Shown here piece after piece: positions 2,521 to 40,213 of a stretch of DNA of 64,000 bases. The stretch's first letter is position 1. Every line of letters begins with the position of its first letter. The notes under the pieces are model-generated. The model did no database searches. It saw nothing but the letters and a program-made list of their open reading frames with translations, and was not told the origin of the DNA. The position numbers and the translations under genes were made by a program. Origin of the DNA: a virus; the IMG/VR virus record IMGVR_UViG_3300036766_000416, positions 1-64,000 of that record; one strand, given 5' to 3'.

Positions 2521-2550
2521 TTCCTGAAGCCCAAATAATACACTCTGGGC

Positions 2551-2579
2551 TTGACAACAGGCTCAGAGTGTGCTATCAT
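2551..2579 (+). promoter_or_regulatory. sigma70-like promoter
   Basis: TTGACA at 2551-2556 and TATCAT at 2574-2579 are spaced 17 bp, with TGTGC before the -10. It drives the secreted protein at 2637. Confidence 0.7.
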
Positions 2580-2636
2580 CAGAGCACATTATGAACACAG
2601 ACCAATAGACCGTATGGATTCTGAGAGGAAGGTCTC

Positions 2637-12414: not shown

Positions 12415-12981
12415 ATGCCGTGGCATCATATTATTCCAAAGCATAAGTGGAAGTTCAGGTTTGGCGATCTGGGTGGCGTGAATGCTCATGATAATTTGGT
12501 CAATTTGACTACGGAACAACATTCCCAGGTTCATAGGATGATGGGGGAGTGTGGGTCGCAATATGATTATATTGCCTATTTGGCTATTTCTCGTCAGATC
12601 GGGAAGGAAGAAATTCAAAAGCGAATATCTTCTCATGCGTCCTCTGTTGCCAATGCTGGAAATAAATACGCACTGGGAACTAAACGAACGGAAGAACAGA
12701 AGAATAGGATGGTAGAGTTGGCAAGAGGCCGAAGGCAGACTGGGAAGCAGAAATTAGAATCCGCTAAACGCATGATAGGAAATAAATACTCCCTCAATAA
12801 GAAGAACGGTTTGGGGTATAAACACACCGAGAAATATAAGAAAGAGGCTTCTGAAAGACTGATCGGTAATACAAATGCTTTAGGGGCTAAACATACCGAT
12901 GAAATGAATCGTCTCAAATCAGAAAGATTGATCGGAAAGAAACGCGGCCCATACCGTAGGATACATATACCTGTGGTGTAA
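12415..12981 (+). CDS. HNH homing endonuclease with NUMOD-type repeats
   Basis: This encodes 188 residues. The N-terminus MPWHHIIPKHKW plus downstream EQHSQVHRMM gives the WHHIIP-type HNH site common in T4-like phages. Lys-rich repeats of a GNKY-LG-KHTEE type follow, as in NUMOD3 DNA-binding modules. AGAGGT lies 6 nt before ATG 12415. It stands between tRNA-Ile and tRNA-Trp. Its last 15 nt, including the stop, are the first 15 nt of tRNA-Trp. Confidence 0.85.
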   Translation: MPWHHIIPKHKWKFRFGDLGGVNAHDNLVNLTTEQHSQVHRMMGECGSQYDYIAYLAISRQIGKEEIQKRISSHASSVANAGNKYALGTKRTEEQKNRMVELARGRRQTGKQKLESAKRMIGNKYSLNKKNGLGYKHTEKYKKEASERLIGNTNALGAKHTDEMNRLKSERLIGKKRGPYRRIHIPVV

Positions 12982-13040
12982 TAGCAACATATTCGTCTCC
13001 AAAACGAATGATCGGGGTGCAATTCCTCGTAGGTATGCCA
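12967..13040 (+). tRNA. tRNA-Trp(CCA)
   Basis: The acceptor is ATACCTG/TAGGTAT, the D-stem GTGT/ACAT, and the anticodon loop CTCCAAA on stem TTCGT/ACGAA, with CCA encoded. The T-loop is TGCAATT. It overlaps the end of the HNH gene. The last A of CCA begins an out-of-use ATG. Confidence 0.85.
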
Positions 13041-13063
13041 TGTGCCTTACAAAGGAAGATATT

Positions 13064-13591
13064 ATGAGCGCATTCACATTAGTTCTGAATCACAGTTATG
13101 AACCCCTCCAGGTGGTTGGGTGGCAGCGAGCCGTGACCCTGTTGTTTCAGGGTAAGGCTGAAGTGATTGAGGAACACAATGAGGAGATCCACTCGATTTC
13201 CTTTAGCATGAAGATTCCTTCTGTGTTGCGTATGTTGAGTATGGTGCGCCTGAAGCGTAAGGTGCCTGTCAAGTTTACGCGACTGAACATCTTCACCCGT
13301 GATGGTTGGAAGTGTCAGTATTGTGGTGAAAAGTTCCCTAGTGAGAAATTGACGTTCGACCATGTGGTACCTGTGTCTCAGGGTGGCAAAAAACAATGGG
13401 AAAATATCGTGACCGCGTGTGTGGAGTGTAATTCGCACAAGGAAGGGCGCACGCCTCAGCAAGCTGGCATGAAGTTGCTCAAGAAGCCTAAACAGCCAAT
13501 CTGGGCGCAAGTAGTCACCGTGACCGTAGGGTTGCGAACGACACCAGATAGTTGGCGCGATTATTTATACTGGACTTGCGAGCTTGAGTGA
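13064..13591 (+). CDS. HNH endonuclease (Cys-type)
   Basis: This encodes 175 residues. A conserved-looking N-terminal domain (LNHSYEPLQVVGWQRAVTL) is followed by a C-x2-C ... H ... C-x2-C-N zinc-stabilised HNH core: CQYCGEKF, FDHVVP, ACVECNSHKEGR. This architecture is widespread in bacteria and differs from the WHHIIP homing enzymes nearby. AAAGGAAG precedes ATG 13064. It may be a free-standing nuclease and not a mobile one. Confidence 0.85.
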   Translation: MSAFTLVLNHSYEPLQVVGWQRAVTLLFQGKAEVIEEHNEEIHSISFSMKIPSVLRMLSMVRLKRKVPVKFTRLNIFTRDGWKCQYCGEKFPSEKLTFDHVVPVSQGGKKQWENIVTACVECNSHKEGRTPQQAGMKLLKKPKQPIWAQVVTVTVGLRTTPDSWRDYLYWTCELE

Positions 13592-13634
13592 GTTGATATG
13601 ACCAGGGCATGGAAGGGAATACAGAAGAAAAAAC

Positions 13635-13708
13635 GCCGGAATAGTGTAATGGAAACATCATACACTTGTAACGTATGGATTCGGGTTCGATTCCCGATTT
13701 CGGCTCCA
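13635..13708 (+). tRNA. tRNA-Thr(TGT)
   Basis: The acceptor is GCCGGAA/TTTCGGC and the anticodon loop CTTGTAA, with one A-C mismatch at the bottom of the anticodon stem. The T-loop TTCGATT is normal. TCCA end encoded. Confidence 0.85.
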
Positions 13709-13713
13709 TAACA

Positions 13714-13781
13714 GTCCGCAGATGGGGGTAGCGGGATAAGAAATAATCCCCCTTAATTTCCTCAGAGAAAAACTGAGGATC
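13714..13781 (+). other. Structured spacer with two hairpins
   Basis: GGGGG...CCCCC (about 13725-13753) and CCTCAG-AGAAAAA-CTGAGG (about 13760-13779) can form two stems, but there is no tRNA fold or CCA. It may be a processing signal or small RNA between tRNAs. Confidence 0.35.
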
Positions 13782-13785
13782 GAAT

Positions 13786-13860
13786 GTGACCGTAGCACAA
13801 GCAGTAGTGCGCTGGTTTGTGGCACCAGCTAAGTGGGTGCAAGTCCCACCGGTCACCCCA
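13786..13860 (+). tRNA. tRNA-His(GTG)
   Basis: The acceptor is GTGACCG/CGGTCAC with C73, stem CTGGT/ACCAG and loop TTGTGGC. The base before position 1 is T, so the usual extra G(-1) is not encoded. The T-loop is TGCAAGT (G55). Confidence 0.85.
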
Positions 13861-13862
13861 AA

Positions 13863-13944
13863 GCCAATCGAGAAGGTTGGCACGAAGCATGATAGCATCC
13901 ACCTTAGACGTGGACTCTGAGCAAGGGTGAAAGTGCTATCGAAA
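13863..13944 (+). other. Structured spacer, tRNA-like stem without CCA
   Basis: A hairpin GCCAA/TTGGC is followed by a 7-bp closing stem GATAGCA/TGCTATC. This encloses a 5-bp stem TCCAC/GTGGA with 7-nt loop CTTAGAC. It looks like an acceptor plus anticodon arm lacking D and T arms and CCA. It may be a decayed tRNA or a distinct small RNA. Confidence 0.35.
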
Positions 13945-13947
13945 TAT

Positions 13948-14023
13948 GGGCCCTTAGTTCATTCAGGAGAACGTCGCACTTGCACTGCGAAGGTGGTCGG
14001 AGCAAAGCCGACAGGGTCCACCA
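13948..14023 (+). tRNA. tRNA-Ala(TGC)
   Basis: The acceptor GGGCCCT/AGGGTCC has G3-U70, the anticodon loop is CTTGCAC and CCA is encoded. The T-loop AGCAAAG is non-canonical. Confidence 0.9.
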
Positions 14024-14029
14024 AATGGC

Positions 14030-14080
14030 GACTCGCCGCCCATAAGTGGTGCGCTACACATTGGTAGTGCTTAAAGAGTC
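14030..14080 (+). other. Structured spacer
   Basis: GACTC and GAGTC can close a stem around GTGGTGCGCTAC and GGTAGTGC segments. There is no tRNA fold. It lies between two alanine tRNAs. Confidence 0.25.
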
Positions 14081-14094
14081 GGTTGAAAATAATC

Positions 14095-14169
14095 GGGCCC
14101 TAGGTGTTGACAGGAGCACGCCTGCCTCGCACGTAGGAAGGGTCGGGGCAGTTCCGACAGGGTCCACCA
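14095..14169 (+). tRNA. tRNA-Ala(CGC)
   Basis: The acceptor GGGCCCT/AGGGTCC has G3-U70, with stem CCTGC/GTAGG and loop CTCGCAC. CCA is encoded. The T-loop is GGCAGTT. Its acceptor stem is identical to that of tRNA-Ala(TGC), suggesting duplication. Confidence 0.9.
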
Positions 14170-14175
14170 TAAGAA

Positions 14176-14253
14176 CAGGGTGTAGGAGAATCTGGTTACT
14201 CTACTCGCTTTGGAAGCGAGTGATTGTGGGTTCAAATCCCACCGCCCTGACCA
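14176..14253 (+). tRNA. tRNA-Pro(TGG)
   Basis: The acceptor is CAGGGTG/CGCCCTG, stem CTCGC/GCGAG, loop TTTGGAA and T-loop TTCAAAT, with CCA encoded. It is nearly identical to tRNA-Pro(CGG) at 18657. Confidence 0.9.
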
Positions 14254-14257
14254 TGAC

Positions 14258-14332
14258 GCTCCCATAGACTACTGGCTAGGTCGCTTGCCTTTCAAGCAGG
14301 AAGAGAGAGATCGATACTCTCTGGGAGCACCA
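14258..14332 (+). tRNA. tRNA-Glu(TTC)
   Basis: The acceptor is GCTCCCA/TGGGAGC, the anticodon loop CTTTCAA and the T-loop ATCGATA on stem GAGAG/CTCTC. CCA is encoded. Confidence 0.9.
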
Positions 14333-14337
14333 CGAAC

Positions 14338-14415
14338 GCCATTGTGATGGGAAATGGCATACCTAGTGTGTCGAGAACGCACTGAATGGGAGTTCGAGTC
14401 TCCCCAATGGCACCA
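14338..14415 (+). tRNA. tRNA-Leu(GAG), short variable arm
   Basis: The acceptor is GCCATTG/CAATGGC, stem GTGTG/CGCAC, loop TCGAGAA (C33), T-loop TTCGAGT and CCA. Only about 5 nt separate the anticodon and T stems. Bacterial leucine tRNAs normally have a long variable arm. Confidence 0.75.
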
Positions 14416-14424
14416 TAGTATATT

Positions 14425-14781
14425 ATGTGTGAATCAGAGATTGAACAGATTGACCGGGGCTCAGAGAGAGCCAAGCGAATAATCGCCGAGGTGATTCAAA
14501 CAATCACCTACAAGCCTGGGTACACGTTCACCTGGGATCAGTGTGATGATGGAAGGTTTTTATTCTACCTTCATACTCCGGCGATACAAGACGCGAAGCA
14601 TGTTGATAGGAAATTTACGATCAGACGGTTCGAGTATTTCCTCATAGAGTCGTGTCAGACACAAGCCGATGTTCGTCAGTGTTTTATTGATTTGATTTTG
14701 GGGTGGGAAAAACACGAATTGTATGAGTGGTTGAAGTTTGATGGTAAACAGTTCAAGGACCCACACATAGAAGAATTATAG
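14425..14781 (+). CDS. Hypothetical protein, 118 aa
   Basis: This is a soluble alpha/beta protein (MCESEIEQIDRGSERAKRII...) with several aromatic residues. It sits between tRNA-Leu and the initiator tRNA and lacks nuclease motifs. The ribosome site is weak. The last two bases of its stop overlap the initiator tRNA. No family is recognised. Confidence 0.55.
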   Translation: MCESEIEQIDRGSERAKRIIAEVIQTITYKPGYTFTWDQCDDGRFLFYLHTPAIQDAKHVDRKFTIRRFEYFLIESCQTQADVRQCFIDLILGWEKHELYEWLKFDGKQFKDPHIEEL

Positions 14782-14853
14782 CGGGGTAGAGAAGAGGCCC
14801 ATCTCGTCAGGCTCATAACCTGGAGACCGCTGGTTCAAATCCAGCCCCCGCGA
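14780..14853 (+). tRNA. Initiator tRNA-fMet(CAT)
   Basis: It closely resembles E. coli tRNA-fMet along its length (GCGGGGT-GAG, loop CTCATAA, T-loop TTCAAAT, GCCCCCGC). Base 1 (A) and base 72 (G) do not pair, the mark of initiator tRNAs. CCA is not encoded; the gene is followed by CTT. Confidence 0.85.
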
Positions 14854-14902
14854 CTTCCCTCTTGAGAGATAGAGGGAGTTCAATACCTCGGTGTTGAACT
14901 AT

Positions 14903-14910
14903 TATAAATA
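14903..14910 (+). promoter_or_regulatory. T4-type late promoter box
   Basis: TATAAATA directly upstream of the GIY-YIG gene at 14932. Confidence 0.65.
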
Positions 14911-14931
14911 GTGCATGGAGGGAGACTAACT

Positions 14932-15555
14932 ATGCACTATCTTGTATATTTGATTACGAATCTTGTCAATGGTAAACATTACATTGGATGCCACAAGACT
15001 AAAAATAAAGATGACGGCTACATGGGATCAGGTAAGTATTTGAAGAATGCTCAAAAGAAATATGGTCTAGAGATTTTCAAAAAAGACATTCTCTTTGAAG
15101 CATCTTCTTCCGAGGAGATGTTTGCAAAAGAAAAAGAATTGGTGATTTTGGGACCCCAGAGTTATAATCTTAATGAGGGTGGTCAAGGCGGATTCGATCA
15201 TATCAACAGAAACAGGACACCTGAGGAATGGCGTAGGCTTCATAGTTTGGGCGGAAAAGCAGCAAGACCTTTTTTGGGTAAAAGGCATACCCCCGAAACT
15301 ATAGAAATATGCAGACAAAAATCGAAAGATGCTTGGTCCAACGGATTGATGATAAATGGATTTACTGGAAAGCATCATACCAATGAATCCAAGGCAAAGA
15401 TCGCCGCAAGCAATTCCAAGACACACAAGGGGACAGGGAATCCGAATTTTGGTAAATGTTGGATTACGAATCTTCTTACTAAAGAAAATAGGTTGATTGA
15501 AAAGATTTCCGATATTCCAGATGGATGGGTAAGAGGACGAAGAATGGCTCATTGA
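14932..15555 (+). CDS. GIY-YIG homing endonuclease
   Basis: This encodes 207 residues. Residues 4-19 (LVYLITNLVNGKHYIG) form the GIY-YIG core, with LVYLI in the GIY position. A DDGYMGSGKYLKNA block and a Glu in EKELVIL follow. Middle repeats of the GKRHTPET and GKHHTNESKAKIA type match NUMOD3, and the end ITNLLTKENRLIEK...GWVRGR is a typical DNA-binding tail. GGAGGGAG supports ATG 14932. The stop lies inside the 5' end of tRNA-Met. Confidence 0.9.
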   Translation: MHYLVYLITNLVNGKHYIGCHKTKNKDDGYMGSGKYLKNAQKKYGLEIFKKDILFEASSSEEMFAKEKELVILGPQSYNLNEGGQGGFDHINRNRTPEEWRRLHSLGGKAARPFLGKRHTPETIEICRQKSKDAWSNGLMINGFTGKHHTNESKAKIAASNSKTHKGTGNPNFGKCWITNLLTKENRLIEKISDIPDGWVRGRRMAH

Positions 15556-15623
15556 CTGAAGGAAGTTTCAGACTTCTCTCATAAGGAAGATTGAGGTTGG
15601 TGCAAGTCCAACATGAGCCACCA
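15546..15623 (+). tRNA. tRNA-Met(CAT), elongator or Ile2
   Basis: The acceptor is GGCTCAT/ATGAGCC, stem CTTCT/GGAAG, loop CTCATAA, T-loop TGCAAGT and CCA. CAT with a paired 1-72 fits elongator Met, or an isoleucine tRNA whose C34 becomes lysidine. Its first 10 bases overlap the GIY-YIG gene end. Confidence 0.8.
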
Positions 15624-15630
15624 ATAGAAC

Positions 15631-15708
15631 GCCGTTGTGACGGGAATTGGCATACCTACTTGGCTTAGAACCAAGTGTTTAGGAGTTCGACTCTCCTCAA
15701 CGGCACCA
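15631..15708 (+). tRNA. tRNA-Leu(TAG), short variable arm
   Basis: The acceptor is GCCGTTG/CAACGGC, stem CTTGG/CCAAG, loop CTTAGAA, T-loop TTCGACT and CCA. The D-arm GGGAATTGG resembles bacterial leucine tRNAs, but the variable region is only TGTTT. Confidence 0.8.
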
Positions 15709-15718
15709 AAAATTATGC

Positions 15719-15786
15719 TAGGACCAACAATTGGTGAGACAGCGTTGGTTGCGAAGGAAGATGTAGTTACCAATCTTCCCCTAGTA
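15719..15786 (+). other. Structured spacer
   Basis: CTAGG and CCTAG close a region containing hairpins ACCAA-CAA-TTGGT and GGAAGAT/ATCTTCC (7 bp). It has no CCA and no tRNA fold. Confidence 0.35.
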
Positions 15787-15794
15787 GATTATAC

Positions 15795-15884
15795 GCTCCT
15801 GCGCCTTGATAGGCAGAGTGGCCTTATAAGCCAGTCGCTCTAGATGAGAGCCTTGACTGAGTTTGATTCTCAGCAGGAGTACCA
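15795..15884 (+). tRNA. Class II tRNA-like gene, anticodon TAT
   Basis: The acceptor is GCTCCTG/CAGGAGT, anticodon loop CTTATAA on TGGC/GCCA, T-loop TTTGATT on CTGAG/CTCAG, and CCA. A long variable arm (GCTCT/AGAGC) is present, yet TAT reads Ile AUA, normally a class I tRNA. The D-loop is short and lacks GG. Confidence 0.6.
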
Positions 15885-15890
15885 AAATAT

Positions 15891-15974
15891 GGGTGTGGAG
15901 CCTAACATGGGTGAAGGGGCCGGCTGTAACCCGGTCTAGCCATCAACAAGGTTCGATTCCTTGCACACCCACCA
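15891..15974 (+). tRNA. tRNA-Tyr(GTA)
   Basis: The acceptor is GGGTGTG/CACACCC, stem GCCGG/CCGGT, loop CTGTAAC, a longer variable region, T-loop TTCGATT and CCA. Confidence 0.9.
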
Positions 15975-15991
15975 TGTTGACAGGAGACTTG

Positions 15992-16129
15992 ATGAAAGTT
16001 TATCGAAGCAAACGGCGCTCTTGTCCGATGTGTAAACCGAACAAGATGGGTATTGAGCCCCGTTGGACACCAAAAGAGTTAGACAAGATTCGAAGGATGG
16101 AAAAGGAAGCGAGAGAAGAAAAGGAATAA
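15992..16129 (+). CDS. Small basic CxxC protein, 45 aa
   Basis: It encodes MKVYRSKRRSCPMCKPNKMG..., with a CPMC knuckle and a charged helical tail. AGGAG lies 5 nt before ATG 15992. It ends directly before tRNA-Asp. The function is unknown; RNA binding is possible from the charge. Confidence 0.5.
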   Translation: MKVYRSKRRSCPMCKPNKMGIEPRWTPKELDKIRRMEKEAREEKE

Positions 16130-16130
16130 G

Positions 16131-16206
16131 GCACTCGGAGTCATTTGGCATAGACACTTCCCTGTCGAGGAAGCCCAAGCGAGTTCGATTCTCGTCGAGT
16201 GCGCCA
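16131..16206 (+). tRNA. tRNA-Asp(GTC)
   Basis: The acceptor is GCACTCG/CGAGTGC with G73, stem CTTCC/GGAAG, loop CTGTCGA, T-loop TTCGATT and CCA. Confidence 0.9.
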
Positions 16207-16215
16207 TAACTTATT

Positions 16216-16602
16216 ATGTTAAAAAGACAAATCAATACGAATATGAAGGGGAATGTTGGAGTAGGATCGGCTATTCAATATTTCACTTCTCAGGGGTGGG
16301 TTGTTGCTCTACCTATCAATGATAGTCAGCCGTATGATTTGATCGTCGATATAGATGGTACTTTGAAGAGGGTTCAGGTTAAAACAACGACAAGTAATGA
16401 TGGAGTTTCTTGGGAGGTTGGGCTAAGGATTTCTTCCACAAACACCAAGAGAAACAAGAGCAAGTTGTTTGATGGGTCTTTAGTTGATTTGTTATTTATT
16501 TTAACAGAAGATGGTTCGAGGTGGTTGATTCCAACGGAAAAAATACAAGGAAGTAGCACGATAAGTGTTGGTGGAAAATTATATCAGGAATTCAAGATTT
16601 GA
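16216..16602 (+). CDS. PD-(D/E)XK endonuclease (homing type)
   Basis: This encodes 128 residues. GSAIQYFTSQGWVVALPI, QPYDLIVDIDG and RVQVKTTTS near residues 17-59 give the Glu/Asp-x-Lys core of the small PD-(D/E)XK family that includes the group I intron enzyme I-Ssp6803I. It lies alone between tRNA-Asp and tRNA-Cys with no intron signs. The start is uncertain: ATG 16216 or 16243, neither with a clear ribosome site. Confidence 0.75.
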   Translation: MLKRQINTNMKGNVGVGSAIQYFTSQGWVVALPINDSQPYDLIVDIDGTLKRVQVKTTTSNDGVSWEVGLRISSTNTKRNKSKLFDGSLVDLLFILTEDGSRWLIPTEKIQGSSTISVGGKLYQEFKI

Positions 16603-16603
16603 C

Positions 16604-16678
16604 GTCGCCGTGACTGAATAGCGAAGTAGCTGGCTGCAAACCAGTTCCATGCAGGTGCAATTCCTGTCGGCGACTCCA
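16604..16678 (+). tRNA. tRNA-Cys(GCA)
   Basis: The acceptor is GTCGCCG/CGGCGAC with the cysteine identity base U73, the anticodon loop CTGCAAA and T-loop TGCAATT. TCCA end encoded. Confidence 0.9.
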
Positions 16679-16692
16679 TAAAGAGGTGTTGA

Positions 16693-16818
16693 ATGTCTGG
16701 CACCGAAAAGAGAAACGACATGCCGCACATCCCTGTCAATTGGGACGGCACCCATGAAGACGAAGTGCTTCATGACGGAGATTTTGAGAGTGAATGGAAG
16801 GTGGACAGTGCAGGGTAA
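16693..16818 (+). CDS. Small acidic protein, 41 aa
   Basis: It encodes MSGTEKRNDMPHIPVNWDGT.... AGAGG precedes the ATG. Its last 23 nt are the 5' part of tRNA-Ser(GCT). The function is unknown. Confidence 0.45.
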   Translation: MSGTEKRNDMPHIPVNWDGTHEDEVLHDGDFESEWKVDSAG

Positions 16819-16882
16819 CTGGACCGATTGCTAATCGGATCGAGGGTAACACCTTGGGGTTCGAGTCCTCCGCCTTCCGCCA
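16796..16882 (+). tRNA. tRNA-Ser(GCT)
   Basis: The acceptor is GGAAGGT/GCCTTCC with G73, loop TTGCTAA, a long variable arm, T-loop TTCGAGT and CCA. Confidence 0.9.
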
Positions 16883-16891
16883 TGAGTGTTT

Positions 16892-16976
16892 GGAGAGGTA
16901 ACCAGTTAGGATGCTGGAACCGCCTCGAAAGCGGATTGACCGAAAGGTTGGGTTTCGATTACTCACCTCTCCGCCA
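16892..16976 (+). tRNA. tRNA-Ser(CGA)
   Basis: The acceptor is GGAGAGG/CCTCTCC with G73, loop CTCGAAA on CCGC/GCGG, variable arm GACCGAAAGGTT, T-loop TTCGATT and CCA. Confidence 0.9.
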
Positions 16977-16984
16977 TAATAAAT

Positions 16985-17069
16985 GGAGGGTAAACAGTAC
17001 AGGGTAGCTGGCCCGTCTGGAAAGCGGTGCGAACGAAAGTTTGTGTTTCGAGTACACTGCCCTCCGCCA
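16985..17069 (+). tRNA. tRNA-Ser(GGA)
   Basis: The acceptor is GGAGGGT/GCCCTCC with G73, loop CTGGAAA, a long variable arm, T-loop TTCGAGT and CCA. Confidence 0.9.
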
Positions 17070-17088
17070 TAAAGGAATTTGTGCAGAA

Positions 17089-17172
17089 TTGGAAAGTGTT
17101 ATTGATGTTTTTGGAGCCGCTGTCGCAATGGGTATAGCGATTGCGTTGACCCAGATACTACAGATGCCATAA
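17089..17172 (+). CDS. Possible one-helix peptide, 27 aa
   Basis: A TTG-initiated frame encodes a hydrophobic helix (VFGAAVAMGIAIALTQIL). AAGGA lies 12 nt upstream. This is weak evidence for a gene. Confidence 0.2.
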   Translation: MESVIDVFGAAVAMGIAIALTQILQMP

Positions 17173-17173
17173 T

Positions 17174-17263
17174 GGAGAAATAACCAGGCAAGCGCACTGG
17201 GACTGTTTTGAACACAGATCGACGGTGAAAGCCGTTGGGGAGCATCTCCTCATTTCTCCGCCA
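17174..17263 (+). tRNA. tRNA-Ser(TGA)
   Basis: The acceptor is GGAGAAA/TTTCTCC with G73, loop TTTGAAC on CTGT/ACAG, a long variable arm and CCA. The T-loop AGCATCT is non-canonical. Confidence 0.85.
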
Positions 17264-17282
17264 TGTCAGTCAACAATATAAC

Positions 17283-17619
17283 GGGGGTGAGTTAGTCTCG
17301 ACTGAGACCACAGACAAAGAAACGAACATGCCGAGCACCAGGCGCTCGTAAAAACTTGGAAAACCAGAATTCTCGAACAAGAATTCGCAATGGCAGCTTA
17401 ATCAGTTGCCCGTTGAACCACCGATGCCTATGAGTGGGGAAACGCAATTATAGGTTAGCGGTGAATGCTATGGAGATCGAGGCTTCACAGGCGAAATTAT
17501 CGGCTCAACACTCAAGTCAGTGTCACTCTTGACTTTGAGATCACAATGAGTGACTAGCATGGACATTCGGCTTTGAAAGTATCCCAGGACCGGAGTTGCA
17601 ATACTCCGCACCTCCACCA
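17283..17619 (+). ncRNA. ssrA: tmRNA (one-piece)
   Basis: This is 337 nt. The alanine-type acceptor GGGGGTG/CACCTCC has G3-U70 and an encoded CCA. The 5' half carries the tmRNA-like CATGCCGAG and CTCGTAAAAAC blocks. A tag frame, GAACAAGAATTCGCAATGGC then AGCTTAA at 17375-17401, encodes EQEFAMAA and stop, comparable to the -ALAA ends of bacterial tags. The 3' half has GTGACTAGCATGGACATTCGG, similar to the E. coli segment before the T-arm. It would rescue stalled ribosomes and tag proteins for proteolysis. The resume codon (GAA) is inferred. Confidence 0.88.
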
Positions 17620-17637
17620 ATAGAATAGTATATAAGA

Positions 17638-18174
17638 ATGTGGCATCATGTGATTCCTAGACACGAATGGAGAAAACGATTTGGAAATTTGAATGGATTC
17701 AACCGTCTAGATAATCTTGTTGAATTGACCACAGAGCAGCATGCCCAGGTACATGAATTACTTTTTGAGTTGAATGGAAACCAATTTGACAAAATTGCTT
17801 TTCGGGCGATACGAGGAATGATAGGAAAAGAAGAGGCAAATAAGCAAGCATCTTCTGTTGCCAATAAAGGAAATAAATATAACATCGGTCATAAGAATGC
17901 GTTGGGGTCAAAGCGTGATGAAGAGTGGAAAGTAAAGTATGGAAAGAAAGTTGTTCCGCGTATTCCTAAACCTTATGTGAATCCATTTCAGGGAAAGACT
18001 CATACAGCAGAAGCAAGAGCAAAGACTGGTGCCGCGAATGCAAAAACTCATAGGGGATCGGGCAATCCGAATTATGGAAAGCGGTCTTCAGTGGAAAAGA
18101 GGCAGAAAATAAGTGAATCTTTGAAAGAGTATTTCAGAAAAAAGAAATTATCGCCTCCTGGCCGAGCAGCTTAG
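17638..18174 (+). CDS. HNH homing endonuclease with NUMOD3 repeats
   Basis: This encodes 178 residues. MWHHVIPRHEWRKRFGNLNG and TTEQHAQVH form the WHHIIP-type HNH site, followed by GKEEANKQAS and GKTHTAEARAKTGAANAKTH repeats. ATG 17638 has no ribosome site, but TATATAAG lies just upstream. It follows the tmRNA, and its last 23 nt overlap tRNA-Gln. Confidence 0.85.
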   Translation: MWHHVIPRHEWRKRFGNLNGFNRLDNLVELTTEQHAQVHELLFELNGNQFDKIAFRAIRGMIGKEEANKQASSVANKGNKYNIGHKNALGSKRDEEWKVKYGKKVVPRIPKPYVNPFQGKTHTAEARAKTGAANAKTHRGSGNPNYGKRSSVEKRQKISESLKEYFRKKKLSPPGRAA

Positions 18175-18226
18175 GCATCCGGCTTTGACCCGGATTAGGT
18201 TGGTGCAACTCCAACGGAGGCCTCCA
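18152..18226 (+). tRNA. tRNA-Gln(TTG)
   Basis: The acceptor is CGCCTCC/GGAGGCC with a mismatched 1-72 position, D-stem GCC/GGC, stem TCCGG/CCGGA, loop CTTTGAC and T-loop TGCAACT. TCCA end encoded. A weak first pair is normal for glutamine tRNAs. Confidence 0.8.
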
Positions 18227-18234
18227 TGAGTTAT

Positions 18235-18308
18235 AGGGATGTGGCAGATCGGCGATGCACTGGTCTCTGACACCAGCCAGAAAGGTTCAACTCCTTTCAT
18301 CCCTGCCA
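18235..18308 (+). tRNA. tRNA-Gln(CTG)
   Basis: The acceptor is AGGGATG/CATCCCT with G73, stem CTGGT/ACCAG, loop CTCTGAC, T-loop TTCAACT and CCA. Confidence 0.9.
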
Positions 18309-18326
18309 TGAGTTTGTTGAGTAGAT

Positions 18327-18401
18327 TGGCGAGTACCCAAGTGGTATGGGACCTGGCCGTTAACCAGGAAGTCGCACGTTCGATCCGTGCCTCGCCAGCC
18401 A
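18327..18401 (+). tRNA. tRNA-Asn(GTT)
   Basis: The acceptor is TGGCGAG/CTCGCCA with G73, stem CCTGG/CCAGG, loop CCGTTAA (C33), T-loop TTCGATC and CCA. Confidence 0.88.
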
Positions 18402-18405
18402 AAAC

Positions 18406-18480
18406 CGAGCATTGGTGTAACGAGTAACACAACAGTTTGAAGAACTGTCCTACGGGGTGCAAGTCCTCGATGCTCGACCA
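18406..18480 (+). tRNA. tRNA-Phe(GAA)
   Basis: The acceptor is CGAGCAT/ATGCTCG with A73, stem ACAGT/ACTGT, loop TTGAAGA, T-loop TGCAAGT and CCA. Confidence 0.9.
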
Positions 18481-18487
18481 AAGATAT

Positions 18488-18562
18488 GCGGTGGTAGCCT
18501 AGTAGTCAGGCACCTCGTTGCCAACGAGGATCACGCCGGGGCAGATCCGGTCCACCGCTCCA
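18488..18562 (+). tRNA. tRNA-Gly(GCC)
   Basis: The acceptor is GCGGTGG/CCACCGC with U73, stem CCTCG/CGAGG, loop TTGCCAA and CCA. The T-loop is GGCAGAT. Confidence 0.9.
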
Positions 18563-18577
18563 TGTGCAGTAAAATAT

Positions 18578-18651
18578 GCGGTCATAGTATAGAAGAAATA
18601 CGGCTGGCTTCCAACCAGCAATCCCGGTGGCAGAATCCGGTGACCGCTCCA
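18578..18651 (+). tRNA. tRNA-Gly(TCC)
   Basis: The acceptor is GCGGTCA/TGACCGC with U73, stem GCTGG/CCAGC, loop CTTCCAA and CCA. The T-arm has a T-T mismatch and loop GGCAGAA. Confidence 0.88.
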
Positions 18652-18656
18652 ATAAT

Positions 18657-18734
18657 CAGGGCGTAGGAGAATCTGGTTACTCTACTCGCTTCGGAGGCGA
18701 GTGATTGGTGGTTCAAATCCACCCGCCCTGACCA
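18657..18734 (+). tRNA. tRNA-Pro(CGG)
   Basis: The acceptor is CAGGGCG/CGCCCTG, loop TTCGGAG, T-loop TTCAAAT and CCA. It is a near copy of tRNA-Pro(TGG) at 14176 with compensating changes. Confidence 0.9.
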
Positions 18735-18738
18735 ACGT

Positions 18739-18813
18739 GCCCTCTAGGTGTAGATAGCGACACGCGACTTTCGTAAAGTTGAGAGATCGGCGCACGTCCG
18801 ATAGAGGGCTCCA
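18739..18813 (+). tRNA. tRNA-Thr(CGT)
   Basis: The acceptor is GCCCTCT/AGAGGGC, stem CGACT/AGTTG and loop TTCGTAA. TCCA end encoded. The T-loop CGCACGT is strongly non-canonical. Confidence 0.85.
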
Positions 18814-18817
18814 TTAT

Positions 18818-18894
18818 GCGCCTGTAGACCAGCGGCAGGAGTCGGCTGACTTAAAACCAGCACAGGGTGGGTTCGAATCCCACCAGGCGCACCA
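18818..18894 (+). tRNA. tRNA-Leu(TAA), short variable arm
   Basis: The acceptor is GCGCCTG/CAGGCGC, loop CTTAAAA with an A-C mismatch closing it, T-loop TTCGAAT and CCA. The variable region is about 5 nt (ACAGG). Confidence 0.78.
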
Positions 18895-18907
18895 ACAAGA
18901 GGTACTG

Positions 18908-19156
18908 TTGCGAACGAAGAAGGATAAAGCGTATTCTTTTCGACATACGCAAGAACGATTGAAGGAACGGTACCAACTGGATATCACTCGACCAGAGTAT
19001 GATACGATTTGTCAGAACGCAAAAGCACTTAGGGGAGAATTGGAACGTAATGGAAAGCAGATGCAGAAAATTGTAAAAGCCCGATTCAAGGGAAAGTATG
19101 TCACCTTTGTCTATGGTCTTGGGTGTGATTATGTGACCACTGTATTGCCGGCGTGA
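18908..19156 (+). CDS. DUF4258-like small protein, 82 aa
   Basis: TTG 18908 with GAGG 5 nt upstream is the likely start. The pattern SFRHTQERLKERYQLDITRP followed by a beta part (KARFKGKYVTFVYG) resembles small RelE/DUF4258-type folds, but the catalytic role is unproven. It lies between two leucine tRNAs, and its stop lies within the 5' end of tRNA-Leu(CAA). Confidence 0.5.
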   Translation: MRTKKDKAYSFRHTQERLKERYQLDITRPEYDTICQNAKALRGELERNGKQMQKIVKARFKGKYVTFVYGLGCDYVTTVLPA

Positions 19157-19221
19157 TGCAATGCAGACATAACTACCTCAAAAGTAGTTTCCTGGGAGTG
19201 CAAGTCTCCCCGCCGGCACCA
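19147..19221 (+). tRNA. tRNA-Leu(CAA), short variable arm
   Basis: The acceptor is GCCGGCG/CGCCGGC, stem ACTAC/GTAGT, loop CTCAAAA, T-loop TGCAAGT and CCA. The variable region is about 5 nt. Confidence 0.82.
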
Positions 19222-19244
19222 ATTAGGTTGTGCGTAGAAAATAT

Positions 19245-19318
19245 GCTACGATATTTCAATAGGAGAAAACCGCATTGGTAATGCGGAAACCCGGGGGCAG
19301 TACCCGGTCGTAGCTCCA
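19245..19318 (+). tRNA. tRNA-Thr(GGT)
   Basis: The acceptor is GCTACGA/TCGTAGC, stem CCGCA/TGCGG, loop TTGGTAA and T-loop GGCAGTA. TCCA end encoded. Confidence 0.9.
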
Positions 19319-19323
19319 GTTAT

Positions 19324-19398
19324 GCGTCCTGGGCAGGTTAGATATGCGCCTCCCCTACAAGGAGAACCAAGAAGGTGCAATTCCTTCAGGACGCACCA
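19324..19398 (+). tRNA. tRNA-Val(TAC)
   Basis: The acceptor is GCGTCCT/AGGACGC, loop CCTACAA (C33), T-loop TGCAATT and CCA. Confidence 0.85.
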
Positions 19399-19404
19399 AA
19401 ATAT

Positions 19405-19481
19405 GTCCTTGTAGTGAAGCCTGAACATCACACTGGCCTGCGAAGCCGGAGACGTGGGTTTGAATCCCACCGAGGACACCA
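19405..19481 (+). tRNA. tRNA-Arg(GCG)
   Basis: The acceptor is GTCCTTG/CGAGGAC, stem CTGGC/GCCGG, loop CTGCGAA, T-loop TTTGAAT and CCA. G34 replaces the A34 (inosine) used by most bacteria for CGY codons. Confidence 0.85.
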
Positions 19482-19485
19482 TAAC

Positions 19486-19560
19486 GGTCTGCAAGCTTTA
19501 GCAGATGAGCACCGGTCTCTTAAACCGGGGAACGGGGTGCAATTCCCTGGCGGACCACCA
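19486..19560 (+). tRNA. tRNA-Lys(CTT)
   Basis: The acceptor is GGTCTGC/GCGGACC, stem CCGGT/ACCGG, loop CTCTTAA, T-loop TGCAATT and CCA. Confidence 0.88.
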
Positions 19561-19563
19561 ATT

Positions 19564-19622
19564 ACGGCTCGCCTGCCATGTGTAGGAAATGAGCATACGG
19601 GGCCCTCAAGTTGGGGGTCCTA
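19564..19622 (+). other. Structured spacer
   Basis: GCTC/GAGC and CCC-TCAAGTT-GGG stems can form, but there is no acceptor stem or CCA. It may be a decayed tRNA. Confidence 0.25.
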
Positions 19623-19632
19623 GCAAAAATAC

Positions 19633-19706
19633 GCTCCCATAGATTATCAGTAGATCGCTAGATTCTCAATCTAGAGAGCCGAGGGCAGCACTCGGTGGGA
19701 GCACCA
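19633..19706 (+). tRNA. tRNA-Glu(CTC)
   Basis: The acceptor is GCTCCCA/TGGGAGC (same as the other Glu tRNA), stem CTAGA/TCTAG, loop TTCTCAA, T-loop GGCAGCA and CCA. Confidence 0.9.
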
Positions 19707-19711
19707 AATAC

Positions 19712-19787
19712 GTCCCCGTGGACCAACTGAAAGGTCACCTCTCTTCTAAAGAGGACTATGCGAGTTTGAGTCTCGCCGGGGACACCA
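19712..19787 (+). tRNA. tRNA-Arg(TCT)
   Basis: The acceptor is GTCCCCG/CGGGGAC, stem CCTCT/AGAGG, loop CTTCTAA, T-loop TTTGAGT and CCA. Confidence 0.9.
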
Positions 19788-19791
19788 TGAC

Positions 19792-19868
19792 GCCGCTGTA
19801 GATCAACGGACGATCACCCCTCTCCTAAAGGGGTTATTCTGTGGGTTCGACTCCCATCAGCGGCACCA
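19792..19868 (+). tRNA. tRNA-Arg(CCT)
   Basis: The acceptor is GCCGCTG/CAGCGGC, stem CCCCT/AGGGG, loop CTCCTAA, T-loop TTCGACT and CCA. Confidence 0.9.
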
Positions 19869-19872
19869 ATAT

Positions 19873-19951
19873 CTCCCTGTGATGGCAATTGGACGCCGAC
19901 TTCGCTTCGAACGAAGGCTTGATGCAGGTTCGAATCCTGTCAGGGAGACCA
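19873..19951 (+). tRNA. tRNA-Arg(TCG)
   Basis: The acceptor is CTCCCTG/CAGGGAG, stem CTTCG/CGAAG, loop CTTCGAA, T-loop TTCGAAT and CCA. Confidence 0.88.
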
Positions 19952-19967
19952 ATATCATGGAGGCACG

Positions 19968-20114
19968 ATGAGATTCGCTGACAGTAAAGAAATCGTCGCT
20001 AATGAGACTGTTGAGCCGATAGACGAACAGTTTCAGAAATCGAAAATACCGACCCTTAGCTCAAAAGAAGAGCACCACTTTGACACGGTGGGGACAGTGG
20101 AGCATTACCACTAG
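19968..20114 (+). CDS. Small protein overlapping tRNA-Val, 48 aa
   Basis: It has a perfect GGAGG site before ATG 19968. It encodes MRFADSKEIVANETVEPIDE..., and its second half runs through tRNA-Val(GAC). The N-terminal part may be selected; the rest is constrained by the tRNA. Confidence 0.4.
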   Translation: MRFADSKEIVANETVEPIDEQFQKSKIPTLSSKEEHHFDTVGTVEHYH

Positions 20115-20123
20115 GGTTGACCA
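20050..20123 (+). tRNA. tRNA-Val(GAC)
   Basis: The acceptor is CGACCCT/AGGGTTG, D-arm GCTC/GAGC, stem CCACT/GGTGG, loop TTGACAC and CCA. The T-loop AGCATTA is non-canonical. Confidence 0.82.
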
Positions 20124-20126
20124 TAC

Positions 20127-20201
20127 GGGCCGCAAAATTTAGTAGATGATTACCAGACTTTTAATCTGGGGAACCGGGTGCAATTCCTGGGCGGCCCACC
20201 A
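20127..20201 (+). tRNA. tRNA-Lys(TTT)
   Basis: The acceptor is GGGCCGC/GCGGCCC, stem CCAGA/TCTGG, loop CTTTTAA, T-loop TGCAATT and CCA. It is similar to tRNA-Lys(CTT) in its D and T arms. Confidence 0.9.
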
Positions 20202-22593: not shown

Positions 22594-22891
22594 AATGTTT
22601 CAGGAATACGAGCCGATTCCCTTTCGCGTTTGGCACGAAGAGAACCGCGAGGACCTGGAAAAAGAATTCACGGTGTTGGATTTTGTTGCTGATGACCTGG
22701 ACTGTCCGAAGTGTGATGGATTTGGTGTTCTGGAGTGTGATTTGGACCATGATCATGAATGCTCTGACTGTGAAGGAACCGGAAAGAATGACCAGAGTTA
22801 TGATGAAGCCTTGAGCGACTATTCACACAACCAATATCACGAGCAAGTTAAGAAAGACAAAGAAAAATTGAAGGTGTATTGTGCCTCATAA
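22580..22891 (+). CDS. DnaJ-type zinc-finger protein
   Basis: This encodes 103 residues. Two CxxCxGxG-type motifs, CPKCDGFG and CSDCEGTG, are separated by an acidic/His segment. They form one zinc site like the central domain of DnaJ, without a J domain. AGAAGGAAG precedes ATG 22580. It overlaps rtcB by 11 nt and is likely co-translated. The role is unknown; an RNA or protein chaperone adaptor is possible. Confidence 0.65.
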   Translation: MSSLKMFQEYEPIPFRVWHEENREDLEKEFTVLDFVADDLDCPKCDGFGVLECDLDHDHECSDCEGTGKNDQSYDEALSDYSHNQYHEQVKKDKEKLKVYCAS

Positions 22892-24062
22892 TGTTGTAAC
22901 GGGGGAGAACCGCAAGCCTATCAAGGTTTGGTCACCTATCCATGAAGTAGAATCTCAGGCTCTTGACCAACTCAAGAACACGGCTTCGCTTCCATTTATT
23001 TTCAAGCATGTCGCAGTCATGCCTGATGTTCACTATGGTATTGGTGCCACTGTGGGTTCTGTGGTGGCCACGAAGGGTGCTGTGGTTCCGGCGTGTGTCG
23101 GTGTCGATATTGGTTGTGGCATGATGGCTGCGAAGATGCCGTTCAAGTCCAACCGGCTACCTGACAATCTCCAAGCGTTATTTGATTCGATCAGCAAAGC
23201 GGTCCCTGTAGGTCAGGATATGCACCAACATGCCCCGCACGTCTGGCAGCAGTCTTGTAGTGTGGTGGATTTGCCAAAGAAACTTCAGGATGCTCCTGAG
23301 CGTGTGGCGAGACAGCTTGGCACTCTTGGTGGTGGAAACCACTTTATTGAGATTTGTCTGGACCTTGATGAGAATGTGTGGATCATGCTCCATTCGGGTT
23401 CTCGTGGCATCGGGAACAAAATTGGAAATTATTATATCGACCGAGCGAAAGAAATCATGTCTCAATACATGATCAAGTTGCTTGACCCGAACTTGGCGTA
23501 CCTTGTCGAGGATTCTCAATTGTTCAAAGATTATTGGCGTGACCTCCAGTGGGCACAGAACTACGCGATGAAGAACCGCGAGGTTATGATGGCCTTGGTG
23601 AAGCAGTCGGTGGCTGAAGTGATCTTTGGTGACAAGACCACGGTCATTGCTCCTGAGGTGACTATTTCATGTCATCATAATTATGCTGAGAAGGAAAACC
23701 ATTACGGTGAGAATGTCATAGTGACTCGGAAAGGTGCGATTAGGGCTCGTGTTGGTGATATGGGCATTATTCCTGGATCGATGGGCACCCGCTCGTATAT
23801 CGTCAAGGGATTGGGTTGCCAGGATTCTTTTTGTTCTGCTCCCCATGGTGCGGGTCGTGTCATGTCTCGTGGCAAGGCGAAGCAGATGGTGACCGCTGAG
23901 ATGTTTGACGAGCAGACCAAGGGGATATTATGCCGCAAGGATTCTGGTGTATATGATGAGGCTCCTATGGCTTATAAACCCATAGATCAGGTGATGTATA
24001 ATGCGAATGGTCTTGTTGAAGTTATGGCAGAACTACGCCAGGTTCTTTGTATCAAAGGATGA
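22881..24062 (+). CDS. rtcB: RtcB-family RNA ligase
   Basis: This encodes 393 residues. Signature blocks are MPDVHYGIGATVGSVV, VGVDIGCGMMA, LGTLGGGNHFIE, LHSGSRGIGN and SCHHNYAE. RtcB joins a 2',3'-cyclic phosphate or 3'-phosphate to a 5'-OH using GTP and Mn, and repairs cleaved tRNAs. Being close to a huge tRNA array, it could reverse host anticodon-nuclease damage. GTG start overlapping the zinc-finger gene. Somewhat shorter than the roughly 400-480 residues of many bacterial members. Confidence 0.92.
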   Translation: MPHNVVTGENRKPIKVWSPIHEVESQALDQLKNTASLPFIFKHVAVMPDVHYGIGATVGSVVATKGAVVPACVGVDIGCGMMAAKMPFKSNRLPDNLQALFDSISKAVPVGQDMHQHAPHVWQQSCSVVDLPKKLQDAPERVARQLGTLGGGNHFIEICLDLDENVWIMLHSGSRGIGNKIGNYYIDRAKEIMSQYMIKLLDPNLAYLVEDSQLFKDYWRDLQWAQNYAMKNREVMMALVKQSVAEVIFGDKTTVIAPEVTISCHHNYAEKENHYGENVIVTRKGAIRARVGDMGIIPGSMGTRSYIVKGLGCQDSFCSAPHGAGRVMSRGKAKQMVTAEMFDEQTKGILCRKDSGVYDEAPMAYKPIDQVMYNANGLVEVMAELRQVLCIKG

Positions 24063-26531: not shown

Positions 26532-27295
26532 TGAAAACCTTTGCGATTATCACCCCCACGATTGGGGGTCCTGAATTAGAACGGTGTATTCTCTCATTGC
26601 GCGGGCAGGACTGTAGGCATATCATCGTGGTTGATGGTTCAGTTTATAATGCGAAAGTCAATAATATACTGCTGAGGGTCGGTCTAACAAACCAAATTCG
26701 TTGTATTTGGTTAGAAGATAATATTGGTCGCACTGGTGGGAATTTTTATGGTCACCGAGCATTCGCAGCAGCGTCGTTCCTGGTCAATGAGGATGTGTTG
26801 TGCTACCTCGACCCAGACAATTGGGTGGAACCAGAGTATATTGAGTCGTTTCGTGAGGTCCTGAGTGATCCTAAATATCAGTGGGCTTACACCCTTCGCA
26901 GGGTTGTGGACCCTCAAGGGAACTACATTTGCCATGACGATTGTGAGAGCTTGGGTCACTGGCCTGTGATGGGAGACCCTAATAGGTATCACATTGATAC
27001 GGGGTGCTTTGCGGTACCACGAGAGATTGCGTTGAAGGTGGGTCATAATTGGCATGGACAATGGGGTGCTGACAGGCAGTTCTTTGGTGCACTGAAAGAC
27101 TTTGCGCCGATGTTTGGATGTACCAATCACTATACACTCAATTATCGGTTGGGTGGGGCCACGAACATGGCGACCCAAGAGATGTTTCTTCGTGGGAACA
27201 AGATCACATCCGACATGTATAAGGGAGAATTTCCTTGGCGAAACCTACGCGAACGCAAGAAGTTGATTCTGAATTATCAGACAACTCAGGAGTAA
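26531..27295 (+). CDS. Family 2-type glycosyltransferase
   Basis: This encodes 254 residues. The GT-A start MKTFAIITPTIGGPELERCI, a DPDN motif in LCYLDPDNWVEPEY (metal/nucleotide binding) and HGQWGADRQFF near the acceptor site are visible. It may glycosylate phage DNA, proteins or the host surface; the acceptor is not evident. GTG start overlaps the previous stop. Confidence 0.8.
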   Translation: MKTFAIITPTIGGPELERCILSLRGQDCRHIIVVDGSVYNAKVNNILLRVGLTNQIRCIWLEDNIGRTGGNFYGHRAFAAASFLVNEDVLCYLDPDNWVEPEYIESFREVLSDPKYQWAYTLRRVVDPQGNYICHDDCESLGHWPVMGDPNRYHIDTGCFAVPREIALKVGHNWHGQWGADRQFFGALKDFAPMFGCTNHYTLNYRLGGATNMATQEMFLRGNKITSDMYKGEFPWRNLRERKKLILNYQTTQE

Positions 27296-27300
27296 TCAAC

Positions 27301-27873
27301 GTGATCCCTGATGGGGCCATGTCGATTGAGGACGTCGTTCAACTGGGATTGTTGAATCACCACACCCATTTCCTCATTGGGGAAATTGACTATGTGAATG
27401 TGTCTCGGGCGATTCAGTGGATTCTGTATGAGAATCGGAATACTGAGCAACCAGATCACCTGACGTTGTATGTGAATTCTGGTGGTGGTGATTTGTATAA
27501 TTCCTTTGCGCTCATTGATATTATTTTGAATTCGAAGATTCCTGTGTGGACTGTGGGTGTAGGAAATGTCATGTCAGGGGCCGCATTGATTTTTGCGTGT
27601 GGGGCCAAAGGGCACCGATACCTGGGGAAGCACACAGGTATTATGATCCACCAGTTCACCACGAGCATTGAAGGTAAAGAGCACGAAATTACAGCTTCAA
27701 TGCGTGAAATGGATTTGTGCCGAGAGCGTGTGAATGACCTGCTTGTAAAGCAATGTAAGATTACTGACAAGACGGTGCGAGAAAAGCTCCTCAATCCATC
27801 AGACGTGTGGATGACAGCCCAAGAGGCGATTCAGTATCACCTGGCTGATAAATTACTGACCACCATTATTTGA
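27301..27873 (+). CDS. clpP: ClpP-like serine protease
   Basis: This encodes 190 residues. YVNSGGGDLYNSFALIDII, then GNVMSGAALIFACG with the nucleophile Ser, GIMIHQF with the His, and ADKLL at the end match ClpP. AGGAG precedes GTG 27301; an upstream TTG at 27235 would overlap the glycosyltransferase. It could process virion proteins or work with a host Clp ATPase. Confidence 0.85.
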   Translation: MIPDGAMSIEDVVQLGLLNHHTHFLIGEIDYVNVSRAIQWILYENRNTEQPDHLTLYVNSGGGDLYNSFALIDIILNSKIPVWTVGVGNVMSGAALIFACGAKGHRYLGKHTGIMIHQFTTSIEGKEHEITASMREMDLCRERVNDLLVKQCKITDKTVREKLLNPSDVWMTAQEAIQYHLADKLLTTII

Positions 27874-29766: not shown

Positions 29767-29875
29767 CCCGTCGTGCAGAAACCACAAAGGTTGTCCATGG
29801 TGTCGAGGTAATCGCACCCATCAATCACACAAGGCTGAAGAGTCAGCCGATAGCCGAGTTCAAGAGTCTGAGTAG
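29696..29875 (+). CDS. Conserved small Cys/His phage protein, 59 aa
   Basis: MSLDKAIKHKKSRRSPYRRS then SFDPSCRNHKGCPWCRGNRT is the recognisable pattern of a small protein found in many phages and prophages, with Cys/His residues probably binding zinc. It is encoded in another frame of the previous gene's end. Its 3' end overlaps the leftward HNH gene. Confidence 0.7.
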   Translation: MSLDKAIKHKKSRRSPYRRSKSFDPSCRNHKGCPWCRGNRTHQSHKAEESADSRVQESE

Positions 29876-30316
29876 GCGTTGTTTTTTCTTAGAGGCTACC
29901 ATGTTAGCGATGCGGGTGGGGGTTTGAGGTCCGAGTTTTTTGGTTTTGTAGGGTGCTCGTTTTTTGCCAAGTTGACGAATCGAGCAGGCCTCTCGGTGTT
30001 CCTTGGATAATTTCTTTCCTGTCTGCATAATACGCAGTTTTTCTTTATGAGCTTGGGATAGATGTCTTCCCTTATTAGCAAAGAAGATGACTTGTCGAAT
30101 GAGTTCTTCTTTCCCTATTTGACCGGAAATGCTAAGGGACACTAAATGATCGTATTTTATTCCATTCAACTCATAGCATAGCTGATGGGCCTGAGAGTGT
30201 TGTTCTGTTGTAAGGTTTACCCGGTTATCAGGAGAATTGAACTCTTTATTCCAGCGAGTTGCTCTAGGATTTATTCTCTTTTTCCATTCATGAAGGGGAA
30301 TAATGTGATGTATCAT
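29843..30316 (-). CDS. HNH homing endonuclease (leftward)
   Basis: This encodes 157 residues. MIHHIIPLHEWKKRINPRAT and TTEQHSQAHQLCYEL give the HHIIP-type HNH site, followed by GKKLSKEHREACSIRQLGKK repeats. It is the only leftward gene in a rightward block, which fits insertion. Its ATG at 30316 lies 5 nt after a TATAAATA box and has no ribosome site. Confidence 0.85.
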   Translation of the reverse strand: MIHHIIPLHEWKKRINPRATRWNKEFNSPDNRVNLTTEQHSQAHQLCYELNGIKYDHLVSLSISGQIGKEELIRQVIFFANKGRHLSQAHKEKLRIMQTGKKLSKEHREACSIRQLGKKRAPYKTKKLGPQTPTRIANMVASKKKQRLLRLLNSAIG

Positions 30317-30321
30317 GTTTC

Positions 30322-30329
30322 TATTTATA
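30322..30329 (-). promoter_or_regulatory. T4-type late promoter box (leftward)
   Basis: TATAAATA read leftward, then GAAAC and ATG. It drives the HNH gene. Confidence 0.7.
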
Positions 30330-30351
30330 ATACAAGGAGGAATCATAGACA

Positions 30352-30600
30352 ATGGTGAATAAAGAATTGTTGGCTCCAAAGGAAATTACCCGCGCCGAAC
30401 TGAAAGCGTTGGTGGATGAGTGGACCGAAAAGGGCGGCAAGATCACACAATGCCCACCGGGTGTCGCACTGAATTTTAGGTCGGCTGAGTTGGAGAACAA
30501 TCCGGCTCAGGCAAAGCGTCGGTTTCCCAAGCCTGTCACCACAAAAAAGGCAGGGAAGGATGGGAAGGCCAAGGATAAGTCCAAGAAAAAGTGGAAGTAG
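30352..30600 (+). CDS. Hypothetical protein with basic tail, 82 aa
   Basis: The N-terminal helix pair (ELKALVDEWTEKGGKITQCP) is followed by a Lys-rich end (KKAGKDGKAKDKSKKKWK). AAGGAGG lies 12 nt upstream of ATG 30352. It resembles small basic phage proteins of unknown function. Confidence 0.55.
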   Translation: MVNKELLAPKEITRAELKALVDEWTEKGGKITQCPPGVALNFRSAELENNPAQAKRRFPKPVTTKKAGKDGKAKDKSKKKWK

Positions 30601-40152: not shown

Positions 40153-40213
40153 AGCTGGACCTCCCGAAAGGTTTAGAGTGTCTGGGGTGGCGAAACCCGC
40201 GAGGCACATCTTC

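Follow-up and report, generated by a model that had tools for sequence, protein, structure and literature searches.

The window, by which we mean the whole 64,000-nucleotide stretch of virus DNA analyzed here, carries a one-piece tmRNA gene within an array of tRNA genes. tmRNA frees stuck ribosomes and tags the incomplete protein for destruction. At positions 17283-17619 on the plus strand we observed a match to the Rfam tmRNA model RF00023 that scores 81.6 bits (E 4.1e-30), above the gathering score of 47 bits for this model, and that runs end to end over model positions 1-374. An earlier note on this DNA had placed a one-piece phage tmRNA at exactly these coordinates and had named the Rfam covariance model as the check; the full-model match bears it out. 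This is the sole tmRNA in the 178,609-base virus record. The features of the locus and of its presumed partner gene are listed below, all on the plus strand.

12967..20201, plus strand: tRNA array containing the tmRNA gene
17283..17619, plus strand: one-piece tmRNA gene (RF00023, 81.6 bits; homologues in seven relatives)
17283..17289, plus strand: 5' strand of the acceptor stem, with G3 (17285) paired with U70 (read in the sequence; 49 of 49 cells paired in the clade)
17294..17295, plus strand: A18-G19 of the D-loop (usually GG)
17302..17331, plus strand: 5' strand of the P2 helix, outer part CUGAGACC, inner part CAUGC at 17327-17331
17332..17359, plus strand: pseudoknot 1, stem 1 at 17332-17336/17344-17348 and stem 2 at 17338-17342/17355-17359
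17372..17401, plus strand: tag frame CUC GAA CAA GAA UUC GCA AUG GCA GCU UAA, resume codon assigned by homology
17557..17587, plus strand: 3' strand of the P2 helix, inner part GCAUG at 17557-17561, outer part at 17580-17587
17591..17608, plus strand: T-arm with the 8-nt loop UUGCAAUA and G55 at 17598 (8-nt loop common to six other clade members)
17609..17619, plus strand: 3' strand of the acceptor stem, discriminator A and CCA (read in the sequence)
17638..18174, plus strand: homing-endonuclease-like gene immediately downstream of the tmRNA gene (phrog_655, E 2e-9)
27235..27873, plus strand: ClpP-like protease gene (PF00574, 109 bits; Ser/His/Asp aligned with solved ClpP)

For comparison, relatives were sought in virus contigs with the 2079-aa structural protein of the window, and large contigs of the same group were returned. 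A tmRNA scoring above the gathering score is present in all four of the large relatives (134-176 kb) and in one 49.6-kb contig, and two smaller contigs with a tmRNA were found by DNA patterns. All seven of the relatives' tmRNAs are located among tRNA genes, and their covariance-model scores are 78.6-100.8 bits. A tree built from the tRNA-like part unites seven phage tmRNAs, that of the window included, with support of 100/100; the window tmRNA has a branch of 0.4, against 0.042 in its closest kin. Contig G023 also has a tmRNA, which shows the usual elbow and falls outside the clade. A DNA similarity search against 50,697 phage records returned no match near the tmRNA or across 24 kb of structural genes. 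The gp6-like baseplate protein places T4-like phages infecting Pelagibacter, Methylophilales and Synechococcus closest among isolates, with 36-42% identity. Phage tmRNAs as such are already known: an ARAGORN-based survey found them in 402 of 18,146 genomes, about 2.3% (PMC9004378), consistent with the earlier remark that only a minority of phages have one. The present analysis adds a tmRNA-bearing phage clade without a close isolate; also new are a rewired elbow among phage tmRNAs of the one-piece kind, the systematic failure of ARAGORN to report this clade's genes, and the ClpP pattern described below.

The acceptor stem reads GGGGGUG/CACCUCC, with the G3-U70 pair and the CCA both encoded, so that the alanine-type acceptor proposed earlier can be read directly in the sequence, and this tRNA-Ala-like acceptor is invariant across seven clade members. 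The helices of these seven members were written out by hand and their pairs counted. Paired cells number 49/49 for the acceptor stem, 34/35 for the T stem, 51/56 for outer P2, 35/35 for inner P2, 35/35 for stem 1 of pseudoknot 1 and 34/35 for its stem 2, percentages that are biased towards structure since the strands were picked by eye; the changes on both sides of a pair are nonetheless read in the sequences themselves. Both stems of pseudoknot 1 are present before the tag, and 9 of their 10 pairs show such changes in the clade (5/5 in stem 1 and 4/5 in stem 2). Across the seven members, 17 base pairs, these nine of pseudoknot 1 among them, have been altered on both sides and still pair, indicating that the RNA is under selection. 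The window copy has three unpaired positions in outer P2, and its pseudoknot 1, acceptor, T stem and tag are all intact.

The frame EQEFAMAA plus stop that had been reported inside the gene is present at 17375-17401, from GAA to UAA. The tag itself is probably one codon longer. Column homology with the relatives suggests that translation resumes at CUC (17372-17374), which has an A at -4, giving a probable tag (A)LEQEFAMAA in which the first A would come from the charged tmRNA; resumption one codon later may instead give EQEFAMAA. This tag terminates in a degron of the hydrophobic-Ala-Ala type, followed by the stop. The relatives' tags are VEHEFAMAA, VEREFAMAA, VEQQFAMAA, VESEFALAA, VESNFALAA, AAELELVAA and VEQPQREFALAA, and the end conserved in the clade is A-L/M-A-A or V-A-A.

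The elbow of the usual tmRNA has a G18-U55 contact and a 7-nt T-loop, features that are common and not obligatory. The window tmRNA has neither, having A18-G55 and an 8-nt loop. The same holds for the clade, in which contact 18-55 is A-G and not G-U, the D-loop reads AG in place of the usual GG, the T-loop reads UGCRAU in place of the usual UUCRAN, and 7 of 8 members have the 8-nt loop. An assembly error was rejected as the source of this loop, given its presence in six other clade members. Since bacterial tmRNAs with G55 exist, the unusual elbow does not bar membership in the tmRNA family. When one-piece tmRNAs with this T-loop were sought by pattern in 84,980 species of bacteria and archaea, 21 contigs matched, 18 of them from Ca. 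Omnitrophota, and a tmRNA was confirmed in 19 of the 20 contigs scanned with Rfam. Positions 18 and 55 are both readable in 50 tmRNAs, of which 25 have A18 with G55 and 25 have G18 with U55; none of these 50 has a clear mixed state. This count leaves out one phage tmRNA (L050), in which an insertion blurs position 18, and three with one position unreadable. As the A/G set was gathered by its T-loop, the D-loop base is an independent observation. Two Omnitrophota tmRNAs with A and G (L205 and L206) adjoin one with G and U (L244) in the tree with strong support, indicating that joint switches of the two bases have occurred on more than one occasion. The tRNA-like elbow provides a clean example of two bases in tertiary contact changing jointly. 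For Caulobacter tmRNA, U-to-G at this site of the T-loop had already been noted (PMC1168896), and no description of the accompanying D-loop change was found in the literature. The elbow change is not limited to tmRNA: a tRNA-Ser(TGA) gene at 17174-17263 of the window (plus strand), which default ARAGORN missed, also has G at position 55 in its T-loop, AGCATCT, and tRNA-Ser-like genes at 30-112 and 222-311 of contig L039 have TGCAAGT in the T-loop.

Compared with the bacterial one-piece type (RF00023; E. coli ssrA), the phage tmRNA shares the G3-U70 acceptor, CCA, long P2, pseudoknot 1, T-arm, and a tag frame with A at -4 and a UAA stop, and differs in its A-G contact and 8-nt T-loop; at 337 nt, its downstream pseudoknot region matches RF00023 poorly. 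Some Ca. Omnitrophota tmRNAs are likewise one-piece, with A18 and G55 and a close D-loop context, and several of this subset have the motif GCATGGAG, as does the phage clade; they differ in having a 7-nt T-loop, long tags such as ADKLSWNERAVGPVSAPVFVPLAA and a length of about 390-400 nt. The tmRNAs of Melnitz phage (PMC9004378), BUCT-ZZ01 and Phosso are also phage-borne, and that of BUCT-ZZ01 also sits in a tRNA array, but their gene order is permuted and they are two-piece, whereas the window tmRNA is one-piece. Caulobacter tmRNA has a G in the T-loop where E. coli has U342 (position 55; PMC1168896) but is two-piece, alphaproteobacterial and cellular.

With default settings ARAGORN reported no tmRNA at 17283-17619, and relaxed to 75% it flagged the gene at exactly these coordinates, though as no more than putative and with a mistaken tag. 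The default settings missed 7 of the 8 clade tmRNAs, suggesting that phage tmRNA counts made in this way are probably too low. The full tRNA set claimed for the array holds for 19 amino acids on the plus strand and fails for isoleucine, as no GAT tRNA was returned by ARAGORN relaxed to 90%, the setting used for this count. Four more ORFs, in addition to the homing-endonuclease-like gene beside the tmRNA, look endonuclease-like (HNH or GIY-YIG as judged by eye), at 29843-30379 (minus), 34244-34831 (plus), 35664-36221 (plus) and 39271-40209 (minus).

The ClpP-like gene said to lie about 10 kb away is indeed present, with 9.6 kb between it and the tmRNA gene, and the catalytic Ser, His and Asp of its product align with solved ClpP sequences. 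PF00574 identifies ClpP in the window as well as in each of the large relatives tested. A role as the head protease was rejected because a T4-type gp21 protease is encoded separately, at 103 kb, which leaves ClpP free for another role. We detected no SmpB (PF01668) in ten virus records, the record designated G000 among them, and no ClpX/ClpA-type unfoldase (PF07724) in seven records; control genomes were positive in both searches. Host factors would thus be required, and the tag-degradation route proposed earlier would not be wholly phage-controlled; the ClpP gene in that proposal is real, with its catalytic residues kept and with a tmRNA co-occurring in four lineages.

A search of virus contigs with the window ClpP, blind to tmRNA, yielded another phage family (47-50% identity), in which six contigs have a permuted tmRNA 4-11 kb from ClpP and four fragments of 7-13 kb show no such tmRNA. 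Among annotated phages, the best ClpP matches by E-value are Synechococcus phage BUCT-ZZ01 (41%) and Sinorhizobium phage Phosso (37%), which share a related ClpP and both carry a permuted tmRNA; a search for the permuted form found none in two more distant ClpP phages. A match to 'Acinetobacter phage MD-2021a' (CAKLQH020000005.1, L301) was discarded, as the contig has tig-clpP-clpX and looks bacterial. ClpP and tmRNA therefore occur together in four phage lineages, the other three with permuted tmRNA, whereas the tmRNA of G023 is not accompanied by this ClpP. Set against the base rate of 2.3% (PMC9004378), the co-occurrence is suggestive, although large, tRNA-rich genomes may favour both genes independently. 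It supports a link between phage ClpP and tag degradation without proving it, and turns a vague connection into a testable pattern over four phage lineages.

What was observed directly, namely the gene, its structure, the selection on it, its conservation across the clade and which partner genes the virus has or lacks, probably reflects a working phage-encoded one-piece tmRNA that would be host-processed, alanine-charged and SmpB-assisted and would tag with (A)LEQEFAMAA. This reading is favored by the full-length Rfam match, the seven relatives, the both-side pair changes, the conserved tag end, the A at -4, the coupled elbow change, the intact ClpP in large relatives and the tmRNAs in the next-nearest ClpP lineages. 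Counted against it are the long window branch, the P2 mismatches, the missing SmpB and ClpX/ClpA, and an 8-nt T-loop that may affect SmpB binding. From established knowledge of trans-translation, we infer that a long transcript of the tRNA array would be made, from which host enzymes (RNase P, 3' nucleases) would excise the tmRNA. Host alanyl-tRNA synthetase would charge it with alanine through G3-U70, and host EF-Tu and SmpB would deliver it to ribosomes stalled on messages broken during infection. There it would append (A)LEQEFAMAA to the stalled product, and the tagged protein would be passed to ClpP, of phage or host, together with a host unfoldase.

A stronger version joins the phage tmRNA and the phage ClpP in one pathway, in which ClpP, driven by a host unfoldase, would destroy stalled host or phage proteins. 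The intact ClpP in all large relatives, the separate gp21 head protease and the tmRNAs in three further nearest-ClpP lineages, two of them found by the tmRNA-blind search, make this conceivable; with no ClpX/ClpA in the phage, a tmRNA without this ClpP in G023, no permuted tmRNA in two distant ClpP phages and the possible independent effect of large tRNA-rich genomes, we hold it only tentatively, at below an even chance. The phage RNA might alternatively act as a decoy or competitor, occupying SmpB or stalled ribosomes and so blocking, or re-tagging instead of, the host tmRNA. Phage DS6A has a tag-less tmRNA that inhibits the endogenous one (PMC11915505), and the altered elbow and T-loop could change competition, but the DS6A RNA lacks a tag frame, whereas the tag, resume context and pseudoknot 1 have been kept here by selection, making this reading improbable. 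It is highly improbable that the gene is a host-acquired passenger decaying in this virus: the clade-wide conservation with compensatory changes, a window score not below those of the relatives, and the intact tag, pseudoknot 1, acceptor and T stem argue against decay, which the long window branch, the P2 mismatches and the apparent loss of an RNase P RNA from the same array would otherwise fit.

The host may, with some hesitation, be placed among the Omnitrophota, an assignment that we consider possible and short of probable. The phage tmRNAs group with most Omnitrophota A/G tmRNAs with support of 98/88, in a tree of 144 columns whose bootstrap had not settled. Comparison of 20 kb of the window with 384 Omnitrophota genomes gave nothing beyond similarity in the RtcB gene and short matches that look like chance, with no spacer or prophage, and no repeat array is present at the three Omnitrophota match sites examined. 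The Omnitrophota tags are wholly different from those of the phage clade. The elbow signature alone was rejected as proof of host, as A18-G55 arose repeatedly and also occurs in permuted phage tmRNAs (L149, L158).

On a broader and rather unlikely reading, this T4-like, possibly Omnitrophota-infecting clade would carry a co-selected module that supplies, repairs and rescues translation and destroys stalled products during infection, comprising the tRNA array, the rewired-elbow tmRNA, ClpP, RtcB and, in most relatives, their own RNase P RNA. An RtcB-type RNA ligase gene lies at 22881-24062 of the window (plus strand; phrog_1075, E 3e-144), and such a ligase might repair tRNAs cleaved by host defence nucleases. 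RNase P RNA was not found in the window virus. The close relative L268 has one at 328-608 (plus), directly preceding a tRNA homologous to that at 19245 of the window, where just 23 bases (19222-19244) separate this tRNA from the previous one, suggesting that the RNA has probably been lost here. Searches of the open-access literature turned up no earlier description of RNase P RNA encoded by a phage. Bacterial class A RNase P RNA lies inside the tRNA array of relatives (L053 at 2488-2799, minus strand, and G007, G008, G009, G010 and G013), with scores of 176.6-208.1 bits in five contigs and 122.4 bits in L268, and may merit separate study.
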